Source of the DNA: Bacteroidales bacterium
GTDB taxonomy: Bacteria > Bacteroidota > Bacteroidia > Bacteroidales > G3-4614
DNA length: 64,000 nt
NCBI GenBank assembly: GCA_017559955.1
Contig: JAFYPQ010000024.1
Coordinates: 1 to 64,000 of the forward strand
Direction: 5' to 3'
The notes below the pieces were generated by a model. It was not told where the DNA came from and searched no databases. It saw nothing but the letters and a program-made list of their open reading frames with translations. Of this stretch, positions 1,144 through 4,320 are shown piece by piece. Made by a program: the position numbers and the translations under genes. Numbering within the stretch: the first letter of the stretch is position 1; each line of letters starts with the position of its first letter.

Positions 1144-2271
1144 CTAACAACTTAATACTTTCTTAAATCTCGCTAAGAACTCGTCTGCCAACTCTTTTGT
1201 TAAGCAAAGGGGTGGTAATAGACGAATTACGTTTGTTCCTGACACTCCTGTGAATACATGCTCTTCAAACAATAGTTTTGTGCGTATCTCTTTTACAGGC
1301 TCAGCAAACTCCAATCCTATCATCAAACCGCGTCCGCGAACCTCTTTGATTTGTGGAAGTTTTTGCAACTCCTCCATCAAATATGCTCCCACTGCTGCAG
1401 AGTTCTCAACAAGTTTCTCCTCTTTTATGATGTCCAACACCGCAATGGCTGCTGCACATCCAAGATGGTTGCCTCCGAAAGTTGTACCCAACATTCCGTA
1501 TGTTGCTGTGAATTTAGGACTAATCAACACTGCTCCGAATGGATATCCGTTTGCAATTCCTTTTGCCGATGTGATTATATCGGGTTTTATGCCTGTATAT
1601 TGGTGCGCAAAGAATTTTCCGCTACGTCCGTATCCCGATTGTATCTCATCAAGAATCAATACGGTATTGTATTTTTCGGTTAATTCGCGGAGTTGAACCA
1701 TAAAGTCATCGGCAGGTACTTTTATTCCGCCAATTCCTTGTATTCCTTCAATTATTACTGCACACACATCGCCTTTTTGCAACTCTTGCTCAACGGTTGC
1801 AATGTCGCCAAGTTCGCAATATACTACATCGATATTATCGTTTATGGGCGCTACTATTTTAGGGTTATCGGTTACTTTTACCGCTGCCGATGTGCGTCCG
1901 TGGAACGATTTTTTGAATGATATTACTCGTTTGTTTCCTGTGTGGAACGATGCCAATTTTAGGGCATTTTCGTTTGCCTCGGCTCCCGAGTTTACCAAGA
2001 ATAGCGAATACTCTTCGCATCCCGAAATTTCACCCAACTTCTCTGCCAACTCAACTTGTAGCTTATTTTGAATTGAGTTTGAGTAAAATACCAACTTCTC
2101 TGCCTGACTCTTTATTGCATCAACATAGTGTGGATGCGAGTGTCCCACAGATATTACTGCGTGTCCTCCGTAAAGATCGATATATTCTGTTCCGTTTTGG
2201 TCGTAAACTTTACATCCTTTTCCCTCTTTTATCTCTATATCAAATAAGGGATATACATCAAATAGTTTCAT
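1144..2271 (-). CDS. argD: Acylornithine aminotransferase (class III PLP)
   Basis: Transfers an amino group from glutamate to N-acylglutamate semialdehyde, giving N-acylornithine in arginine synthesis. It is a 375-residue class-III aminotransferase. The PLP lysine is K237 in the motif SAKGIANG, and LILDEIQSG just upstream holds the cofactor-binding Asp. In Bacteroides the pathway is known to use N-succinyl instead of N-acetyl intermediates (the succinylornithine transcarbamylase ArgF'), so the substrate may be the succinylated form; the sequence does not decide this. It is the distal gene of the arg run, but about 1.1 kb of repeats and a DUF559 gene separate it from argC. It ends at the shared terminator with proC. 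Confidence 0.92.
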   Translation of the reverse strand: MKLFDVYPLFDIEIKEGKGCKVYDQNGTEYIDLYGGHAVISVGHSHPHYVDAIKSQAEKLVFYSNSIQNKLQVELAEKLGEISGCEEYSLFLVNSGAEANENALKLASFHTGNKRVISFKKSFHGRTSAAVKVTDNPKIVAPINDNIDVVYCELGDIATVEQELQKGDVCAVIIEGIQGIGGIKVPADDFMVQLRELTEKYNTVLILDEIQSGYGRSGKFFAHQYTGIKPDIITSAKGIANGYPFGAVLISPKFTATYGMLGTTFGGNHLGCAAAIAVLDIIKEEKLVENSAAVGAYLMEELQKLPQIKEVRGRGLMIGLEFAEPVKEIRTKLLFEEHVFTGVSGTNVIRLLPPLCLTKELADEFLARFKKVLSC

Positions 2272-2370: not shown

Positions 2371-2567
2371 AACTCCTCCCCTGTAGTAGGGGAGGTGGCT
2401 ATTAGCCGGAGGGGTTAATTTATTTTTTCTCCAACAATAATATGAGTTCAACTTTTAACCCCTTCACCCTGCGGGGACTCCCCCTAAAACAGGGGGAGAG
2501 TTTTTATTTAACCTTCCTAACTCCTCCCCTGTATTAGGGGAGGTGGCTGAAAGCCGGAGGGGTTAAT
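2371..2567. repeat. Palindromic tandem repeat array, left part
   Basis: Two kinds of palindromic block alternate. Block B (AACTCCTCCCCTGTAGTAGG and on to a GGAGGGGTTAAT end) occurs at 2371-2418 and 2519-2567. Block A (starting AACCCCTTCACCCTGCGGGG, with CCCCCTAAAACAGGGGG inside) occurs at 2457-2500. A degenerate A block lies near 2320-2360. The combined unit is about 149 bp. Both blocks fold into strong hairpins and the orientation is constant, as in REP-like intergenic elements. Confidence 0.9.
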
Positions 2568-2572
2568 ATGTA

Positions 2573-2980
2573 TCATCTATTGTTTTTTATCTCTTGCAAT
2601 ACTCGTTTTATCTCAAATAATATGGAATCTACATCCTTCCAAACCATATCATTTTCAAAGCGTATCAACTTAACCCCATAAACATTATTCAACTGAATAG
2701 TTCTAAAATCATCATATTCCATACCTGGCAAAGTATAGTGGCTATTTCCATCTAATTCTATTCCTAATTTTGCCTTGGGACAATAGAAGTCTATAATGTA
2801 AGGTCCAACTGAGAATTGACGTCGCCATCTCCAACCTTCAAGTTGTTTATTCTTAAGATGCAACCACAACATTGCTTCTGCCGACGTTCCAAAAGTTCTT
2901 AAACTTTTTCTCTCTTCTACTAAGTCAGGTCTATTATTTGTCTGAAAATCTTTATTTTCTTTTTTACCTTCCATCGTCAT
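2573..2980 (-). CDS. DUF559 endonuclease-domain protein
   Basis: A 135-residue member of the DUF559 family, related to very-short-patch-repair (Vsr-like) nucleases of the PD-(D/E)XK fold. Visible motifs are E35 with LW at 38-39, the RRQ run at 53-55, D64 in IIDFYC, the IELDG block (E75, D77) and H81. These fit an intact active site. The protein is probably a DNA nuclease, but no substrate is established. The start could be 2980 or the ATG two codons inside (2974). The gene lies exactly inside the spacer of a palindromic repeat array, 6 bases from the block on its left and 17 from the block on its right, and has no functional link to the arginine genes around it. It looks like a passenger or driver of the repeats. 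Confidence 0.82.
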   Translation of the reverse strand: MTMEGKKENKDFQTNNRPDLVEERKSLRTFGTSAEAMLWLHLKNKQLEGWRWRRQFSVGPYIIDFYCPKAKLGIELDGNSHYTLPGMEYDDFRTIQLNNVYGVKLIRFENDMVWKDVDSILFEIKRVLQEIKNNR

Positions 2981-2997
2981 CAGAGATTAATTTTAGA

Positions 2998-3257
2998 CCC
3001 CTTCCCCCTGCGGGGACTCCCCCTAAAACAGGGGGAGAGTTTTTTATTTAACCTCCCTAACTCCTCCCCTGTAGTAGGGGAGGTGGCTATTAGCCGGAGG
3101 GGTTAATTTATATTTCTCCTACAACTGTAATCTGAGTTTAACTTTTAACCCCTTCCCCCTGTGGGGACTCCCCCTAAAACAGGGGGAGAGTTTTTTATTT
3201 AACCTCCCTAACTCCTCCCATGTATTAGGGGAGGTGGCTATTAGCCGGAGGGGTTAA
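2998..3257. repeat. Palindromic tandem repeat array, right part
   Basis: The array resumes after the DUF559 gene: A blocks at 2998-3040 and 3147-3190, B blocks at 3059-3106 and 3210-3257, same orientation, period about 149-151 bp. The 40-base spacer between B and A (3107-3146) closely resembles the spacer at 2419-2456. The last bases before the A block at 2998 also match that spacer end, so the nuclease gene occupies the middle of one spacer. Confidence 0.9.
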
Positions 3258-3351
3258 TTTATCACAATTGTATCTATCCTTTCTACAAAACTATTTGTAC
3301 AAATAGTTTCATCTCAACTAAAAGCTAATAACTATCAACTAAAAACTATAG

Positions 3352-4320
3352 TTAGAACGCCGATGGTTTAAGCATTAAACCTACGGTTTCTTTTAAACCA
3401 AAAAGTAAATTCATATTGTGTACGGCTGTTCCCGATGCACCTTTCAATAGGTTGTCTATTGCCGATGTAATCAAGACCTTATTGCCTTTCTTCTCAATAT
3501 GTATCAAACATTTGTTTGTGTTTACTACTTGTTTTAGATCAATTGGTTTAGTGGTTACATGAGTAAATGAGTGGTCATCATAATACTCGTTGTATATCTT
3601 ATACAACTCCTCTTCTGATACTGTGCAGTCGGTGTATAAGGTTACGAATATTCCACGAGCAAAACATCCGCGAACAGGGATGAAATATAGTTCATCTGTT
3701 GCTGTTGATTGCAATGAGTGAAGTGTTTCGCCTATCTCCGCCAAGTGTTGGTGAGTAAAAGGTTTGTATATTGATATGTTATCGTTTCGGTAACTGAAGT
3801 GCGATGTTGCTGTTGGTTTTTGTCCTGCTCCTGTACTTCCGGTTATGGCATTGATGTGTACGGGATTGTTCAACAATAGGTTTTTTGCCAATGGCAACAA
3901 CGCCAATTGTATTGCTGTTGCAAAGCATCCGGGGTTTGCAACGTGTTTGCAACGGATTAGTTTTTTGCGATTTACTTCGGGTAAACCATATACGAAGTCG
4001 TGCGATGGATCTGCCAAACGATAGTCCATTGAGAGGTCGATTATCTTCAACTCCTCTGGCAATGTGTGCGACTCCATGAATTTTTTTGTATCACCATGTG
4101 CAGTACAGAAGAACAATACGTCGATTGTCTCGAATGGCAATTCGTCTGTGAATTTCAAATCAGTTTCGCCATACAATCCTGTATGAACATCGGTTATGGG
4201 GTTGCCCGCATTACTGTTACTGTTGACAAATACTATCTCTACGTCGGGGTGGTTTATAAGCAGACGAAGCAATTCGCCTGCTGTATATCCTGCTCCTCCA
4301 ACAATTCCTGCTTTTATCAT
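3352..4320 (-). CDS. argC: N-acyl-gamma-glutamyl-phosphate reductase
   Basis: Reduces N-acylglutamyl phosphate to the semialdehyde with NADPH, the third step of arginine synthesis. It has 322 residues. The N-terminal Rossmann motif is GGAGYTAGE, and the catalytic cysteine is C132 in NPGCFAT. It starts 22 bases after argG and is clearly co-transcribed with it. Downstream lies the repeat array that splits it from argD. Confidence 0.95.
   Translation of the reverse strand: MIKAGIVGGAGYTAGELLRLLINHPDVEIVFVNSNSNAGNPITDVHTGLYGETDLKFTDELPFETIDVLFFCTAHGDTKKFMESHTLPEELKIIDLSMDYRLADPSHDFVYGLPEVNRKKLIRCKHVANPGCFATAIQLALLPLAKNLLLNNPVHINAITGSTGAGQKPTATSHFSYRNDNISIYKPFTHQHLAEIGETLHSLQSTATDELYFIPVRGCFARGIFVTLYTDCTVSEEELYKIYNEYYDDHSFTHVTTKPIDLKQVVNTNKCLIHIEKKGNKVLITSAIDNLLKGASGTAVHNMNLLFGLKETVGLMLKPSAF

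Follow-up and report, generated by a model that had tools for sequence, protein, structure and literature searches.

In several bacterial phyla, CCCC-tagged palindromes specifically surround standalone DUF559 genes; often they form inverted pairs that are arrayed in tandem, and the gene occupies one of the spacers of the array. This arrangement suggests that DUF559 and the palindromes form an undescribed partnership, similar to that of REP sequences and RAYT proteins but not homologous to it; in searches of an open-access library, no paper was found that links DUF559 to REP-type palindromes. Bacteria widely carry REP-type palindromes, many families of which are without a known mobiliser. The specific and recurrent partnership provides a testable role for DUF559, a domain of unknown function whose members include ycjD, and makes it a candidate cause for CCCC-type palindrome families. 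If it is true that the nuclease drives their spread, mobility would be achieved by cutting and repair rather than by a transposase.

The window analysed, namely the 64,000 nucleotides at positions 1-64,000 of the 64-kb contig JAFYPQ010000024.1, belongs to Bacteroidales bacterium GCA_017559955.1 (G3-4614), whose genome of 1.9 Mb is 86% complete and whose close relatives within the genus are Bacteroidales MAGs. The array lies between an argD-like aminotransferase gene (1144-2271, minus strand; named from its sequence and from synteny in congeners) and argC (3352-4320, minus strand; orthologues in 8/8 congeners), both taken from the ORF list. Direct reading and a repeat search resolve the alternating A and B blocks into four complete, REPIN-like units of approximately 110 nt on the plus strand: U1 (2317-2416), comprising A1 (2317-2362) and B1 (2371-2416); and the inverted pairs U2 (2457-2564; A2 2457-2502, B2 2519-2564), U3 (2996-3104; A3 2996-3041, B3 3059-3104) and U4 (3147-3255; A4 3147-3192, B4 3210-3255). 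Since the repeat search identifies block A as a diverged inverted copy of block B (48 nt, 71-73% complementary), the true unit, about 110 nt long, is A and B together as an inverted pair. The DUF559 endonuclease-fold gene (2573-2980, minus strand; 135 aa; PF04480 match, E 6.5e-27) sits between U2 and U3, where it takes the place of one spacer, and the retained end of that spacer serves as its leader.

An earlier note on this DNA had described A and B palindromes alternating with a period of about 149 bp, and the start-to-start spacings of the B blocks (148, 540 with the gene included, and 151) bear this out. Likewise, the spacer end that the note saw preserved beside the gene is present, as CAGAGATTAATTTTAGACCCC matches CTGAGTTTAACTTTTAACCCC in another spacer. 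The count of four B blocks stands, while the three full A blocks become four with the recognition of A1, a diverged block of the congener type, and the treatment of A and B as separate motifs gives way to their inverted relationship. As for the assertion that the array splits argC from argD, its position between the two genes is correct, but neither gene is broken. When one unit was compared by BLAST with the whole window genome, matches were obtained at the four array places only, and an Rfam scan of the array region returned only sub-threshold, unrelated matches. Elsewhere in the window, a 33-bp direct tandem repeat (AAGGTGCGTTTTCCTATAAATTTCACCCTCAAA) is present in nearly three copies at the contig end (4-86), and a perfect 17-nt inverted repeat with a 5-nt loop, probably a terminator, follows a proC-like gene (1068-1106).

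Both the hairpin pairing and the DUF559 protein are maintained by selection. DNA folding z-scores of the units range from -3.5 to -4.2, and 0/200 shuffles fold as well. Among the unit copies of the window and its congeners, six base pairs have changed on both sides, and the covariation score of 0.368 compares with at most 0.117 for slid structures and is reached by 0/500 shuffles. The window gene, the only DUF559 copy in its genome, has a dN/dS of 0.144 relative to that of congener G002 (argC: 0.031), indicating purifying selection on the protein. Aligning 90 standalone relatives shows no variation at T32, E35, D64, F65, D77, H81 and D90, and almost none at W39, Q55, E75 and G78. A profile of 17 DUF559 sequences matches 3hrl ('endonuclease-like protein', E 2.5e-41), the aligned residues of which are those of the Neisseria gonorrhoeae DUF559 protein of the study set. 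The same profile yields a weak and partial match (E 1.3e-5) to 3r3p, annotated as 'mobile intron protein'; we take this structure to be that of I-Bth0305I, an EDxHD homing endonuclease. The EDxHD family has been described previously (PMC3943268). An AlphaFold prediction from a three-sequence alignment reached a pLDDT of 38.7, and the model was set aside; PADLOC returned weak domain matches and no defence-system assignment, and a search of viral contigs for relatives yielded nothing usable.

Comparison with congeners reveals that the unit is variably present at this site. The full DUF559 gene and its palindromes occur in 4/8 congeneric genomes, always between argC and argD, while the other four have a short argC-argD spacer free of palindromes; relatives lacking the unit, which the earlier note had proposed looking for, thus exist. 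In one palindrome-free congener, a weak DUF559 match is the only one, and it falls in a long ORF elsewhere. In carriers, the 5' end of argD is repeated beyond the array, over 42-47 nt in G002-G004 and over 15 nt, exact, in the window. There the bracketing duplication comprises a left copy (CAAATAGTTTCATCT, 2259-2273), which covers the argD start and the bases immediately before it, and a right copy (3300-3314), a decayed version of that same 5' end. The far copy runs on into sequence resembling the empty site of G006, and in G003 (L073) the argD 5' fragment and the adjacent unit are duplicated further in tandem. A separate feature of that same locus is a unit whose B hairpin is interrupted by approximately 120 nt of unrelated sequence. 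As a general rule for DUF559 units, duplication of a host gene in the manner of argD finds only a few ambiguous cases.

For the association itself, standalone DUF559 genes of the order (n=90) were gathered by domain score, blind to their flanks, and a shared repeat was counted where the left and right 500 bp matched at 35 bits or more. Among these 90, which are not fully independent in that some are tandem copies or close relatives and three are orthologues at the window's site, left and right flank repeats occur at 62%, as against 0/19 helicase-fused DUF559 genes, 4/55 other genes of the same contigs and 0/90 mispaired flanks. The repeats are built alike, in that a CCCC-type tag precedes a hairpin whose arm contains CCC as well, and this tagged motif stands on both sides of 50/90 standalone DUF559 genes, 0/19 helicase-fused genes, 1/55 other genes and 1/27 Y1 transposase genes of the same order. 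A strict hairpin lies within 400 bp on at least one side of 65/90 standalone genes in the order (helicase-fused, 1/19; other genes, 5/55; shuffles, 4.9% for the order set), of 26/40 in a second set, drawn from further families of Bacteroidota as a replication, and in 13/15 records of Cyanobacteria, Deinococcus and alpha-, beta- and gammaproteobacteria, with shuffles of the three standalone sets giving 2-9%. The idea that helicase-fused DUF559 genes behave like standalone ones was rejected on their flanks (0/19, 0/19 and 1/19). Repeats present with DUF559 never adjacent, the pattern that the earlier note held would make the linkage accidental, were also looked for, and the outcome favoured association.

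As in the window, the gene is located in or beside a tandem array in 22/90 cases, and DUF559 protein similarity and flank similarity increase together. Some DUF559 orthologue groups are without palindromes, which counts against the mobile-unit reading. L219, L222, L225 and L227, for example, are orthologues at one conserved site that are 92-99% identical, have conserved flanks, lack palindromes and perhaps represent a settled host gene. On a plasmid of Deinococcus psychrotolerans (L160), a DUF559 gene lies within the phenylacetate operon, with paaD and paaZ as its neighbours, and is bounded by 56-nt inverted palindromes that are 98% identical.

Insertion sequences are known to target REP sequences in other settings. 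ISPpu9 is one example (PMC8450116), and this, together with the tandem duplications of host DNA at the argD site of G003, is what might be expected if palindrome arrays were hot spots that attract insertions and tandem duplications, with DUF559 landing there by chance. Such an explanation is very improbable and already contradicted by the controls: other genes of the same contigs, helicase-fused DUF559 genes and Y1 transposase genes are rarely so flanked, DUF559 paralogues bring their own palindromes along, and the empty sites of congeners are without palindromes.

Sites unrelated to one another can also hold the gene together with its adjacent palindromes as a unit. Near-identical genes at such sites have in common only the gene and about 20-230 bp on each side, stretches that hold the palindromes, indicating that gene and palindromes move together. 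Within single genomes, L208 and L209 are 90% identical with shared flanks of 21 and 43 bp, and L040 and L087 are 96% identical with shared flanks of 139 and 143 bp. The two copies in L122 are 99% identical and share 90 and 72 bp, and L102 and L109 are 93.5% identical and share 230 and 205 bp. At the G432 site orthologous to a unit of G557, the palindromes and the gene leader have been kept, the gene is gone, and a full unit is found about 1 kb away. Joint travel of gene and repeats, one of two possibilities raised in the earlier note, is well supported on three counts, namely presence and absence at the congener site, strong flank association relative to several controls, and copies at unrelated sites that share gene and palindromes.

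Palindromes of this class are also found away from DUF559 genes. One palindrome subfamily pattern, which the window genome does not match, was counted in 393 genomes, the counts including copies beside the gene: it is present in 46/123 genomes with a strong DUF559 match versus 15/232 without, and at least 10 copies are present in 10/123 DUF559 genomes versus 0/232 without. Copy number of the subfamily is correlated with whether a genome has DUF559 (permutation within families, p 0.0004), and the pattern read backwards is almost absent. Dispersed copies in G163, G020, G046 and G043 lie inside TIR elements with target duplications of 6 bp or about 10 bp, the TIRs differing between element families. 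In G163, 142-bp elements with TIRs of about 20 bp and exact 6-bp target duplications number about 30 in the genome, and those at L276, L278, L280, L281 and L283 carry the same 26-nt palindrome core as the DUF559 locus; the TIR elements of G020 and G046 are similar to these. The same core occurs in G043, a genome without DUF559, within a second TIR family (AATGTCGTTTAATTAAG; L342-L345) with target duplications of about 10 bp. Together these elements show that the palindrome cores are mobile, but a classical transposase may move them, and their TIR setting weakens the copy-number argument for DUF559.

These elements lend weight to the chief rival explanation, which holds that ordinary transposases move non-autonomous elements whose cores are the palindromes and that DUF559 hitch-hikes as cargo. 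The core-bearing elements of G163, G020, G046 and DUF559-free G043 fit it, as do the 27-nt inverted repeats found at the unit boundaries of L040. However, the ends of the dispersed TIR elements were not found at DUF559 loci, and DUF559 units are generally without TIRs and a target duplication, the combination being seen in one near-chance case among 145 standalone genes. Moreover, no transposase-bearing copy is apparent from the TIR positions in G163, and the recurrence of one gene family beside this palindrome class across phyla is left unexplained by cargo. On this evidence the passenger explanation, though a serious one, is considered unlikely.

A further alternative is that the link is functional and non-mobile, the palindromes serving as hairpins (regulatory ones or terminators) or as binding sites through which a resident host nuclease is controlled, for example one with a role resembling mismatch repair. 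Some cores look terminator-like (CCCCTAAAGGGGACTTTTT), and a part in mismatch repair, alongside an unlinked methyltransferase, has been proposed for the Caulobacter DUF559 protein VsrA (PMC12907096). Many-unit arrays on both sides of the gene, dispersed gene-less copies, and gene plus palindromes at unrelated sites nonetheless exceed what regulation would call for, and make this alternative distinctly improbable, more so than carriage as cargo.

Standalone DUF559 genes extend to well-studied species. The standalone DUF559 gene of E. coli, ycjD, has sapF and fabI as its neighbours and is present in 3365/5426 genomes (62%), and CCCC-type palindromes lie downstream of it; in K-12 MG1655 (L173) the stretch concerned is ycjD itself (1501-1854) and about 170 nt downstream. 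The associated palindrome family occupies a median of 18 places per genome, is present in 5375/5426 E. coli genomes, and is kept in many that lack ycjD, which counts against the nuclease as its mover. That this family corresponds to BoxC, a 56-bp element for which 32 copies have been listed (PMC2267715), is a guess. An empty-site comparison for ycjD was abandoned, as two strains lacking the gene have an MFS transporter gene at that position and offer no clean empty site. In N. gonorrhoeae, similar palindrome-bearing stretches of about 122 nt stand on both sides of the DUF559 gene.

Taken together, these data best support one mobile, REPtron-like unit made up of the gene and its surrounding palindromes. 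That the nuclease cuts its own palindromes and repair spreads the unit is the likeliest mechanism, at about an even chance. A small Vsr/EDxHD-related nuclease would recognise these palindromes, probably as extruded hairpins or as tag plus hairpin, and would nick or cut at them, and repair of the break would copy the unit to new places and expand it in tandem. Such cutting and repair would explain both the arrays and the duplication of about 45 nt at the argD start. Fold, linkage and arrays make the nuclease the likeliest driver of unit movement, the mobiliser role that the earlier note suggested for it, with the chances that it is so about equal either way. Against it, the window genome has no palindromes away from the gene, so that no dispersal is visible there. 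A RAYT elsewhere in that genome was considered as the mover and is unsupported, there being no PF01797 match at E 1e-3 in the 86% of the genome that is represented. The broader idea that standalone DUF559 proteins constitute a second, RAYT-independent class of enzymes spreading REPIN-type palindromes across phyla, including E. coli (ycjD) and Neisseria, is more tentative and falls somewhat short of an even chance.

Comparison with known systems places the DUF559 units near several of them. Vsr mismatch endonucleases differ in that DUF559 has a palindrome linkage and no linked cytosine methyltransferase; none is found among the ORFs within about 3 kb on either side of the window array, which read as arginine and proline biosynthesis genes. 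EDxHD homing endonucleases such as I-Bth0305I share with DUF559 the 3r3p profile match, the residues E35, D64, H81 and D90 conserved in the 90 relatives, and the linkage of a small nuclease with mobility. In contrast to that system, the 3r3p match is weak and partial, the DUF559 unit is associated with neither intron nor intein, the flanking palindromes are foreign to homing endonucleases, and the empty sites of congeners are without a palindrome. MITEs and intergenic palindromic families, such as BoxC of E. coli and RIME of Rhizobium, are likewise short, intergenic, palindromic and multi-copy, and several Bacteroidales genomes hold the same core inside TIR elements with target duplications; the window unit, however, lacks regular TIRs with a short target duplication, and the argD duplication measures 42-47 nt in congeners.

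The closest resemblance is to the REP/REPIN-RAYT systems, or REPtrons, with which the DUF559 units share short tagged palindromes, inverted pairs and one dedicated flanked gene. Gene-less dispersed copies, which may be a further point in common, exist in some genomes, partly as TIR elements, though none in the window genome. Unlike those systems, the gene encodes a DUF559 nuclease and not an HUH Y1 (IS200/IS605-like) transposase, and no Y1 transposase was detected in the window genome (PF01797 search at E 1e-3, genome 86% complete). In addition, the tag is of the CCCC type rather than the GTAG or CGTC by which REP sequences are defined (PMC3733652). The likeness to REP elements and RAYT transposases drawn in the earlier note accordingly holds as an analogy, in its inverted pairs, dedicated flanked gene and dispersed copies in some genomes, and fails as a claim of membership; by the features that define that class the DUF559-palindrome system stands outside REP/RAYT, though its organisation looks comparable.
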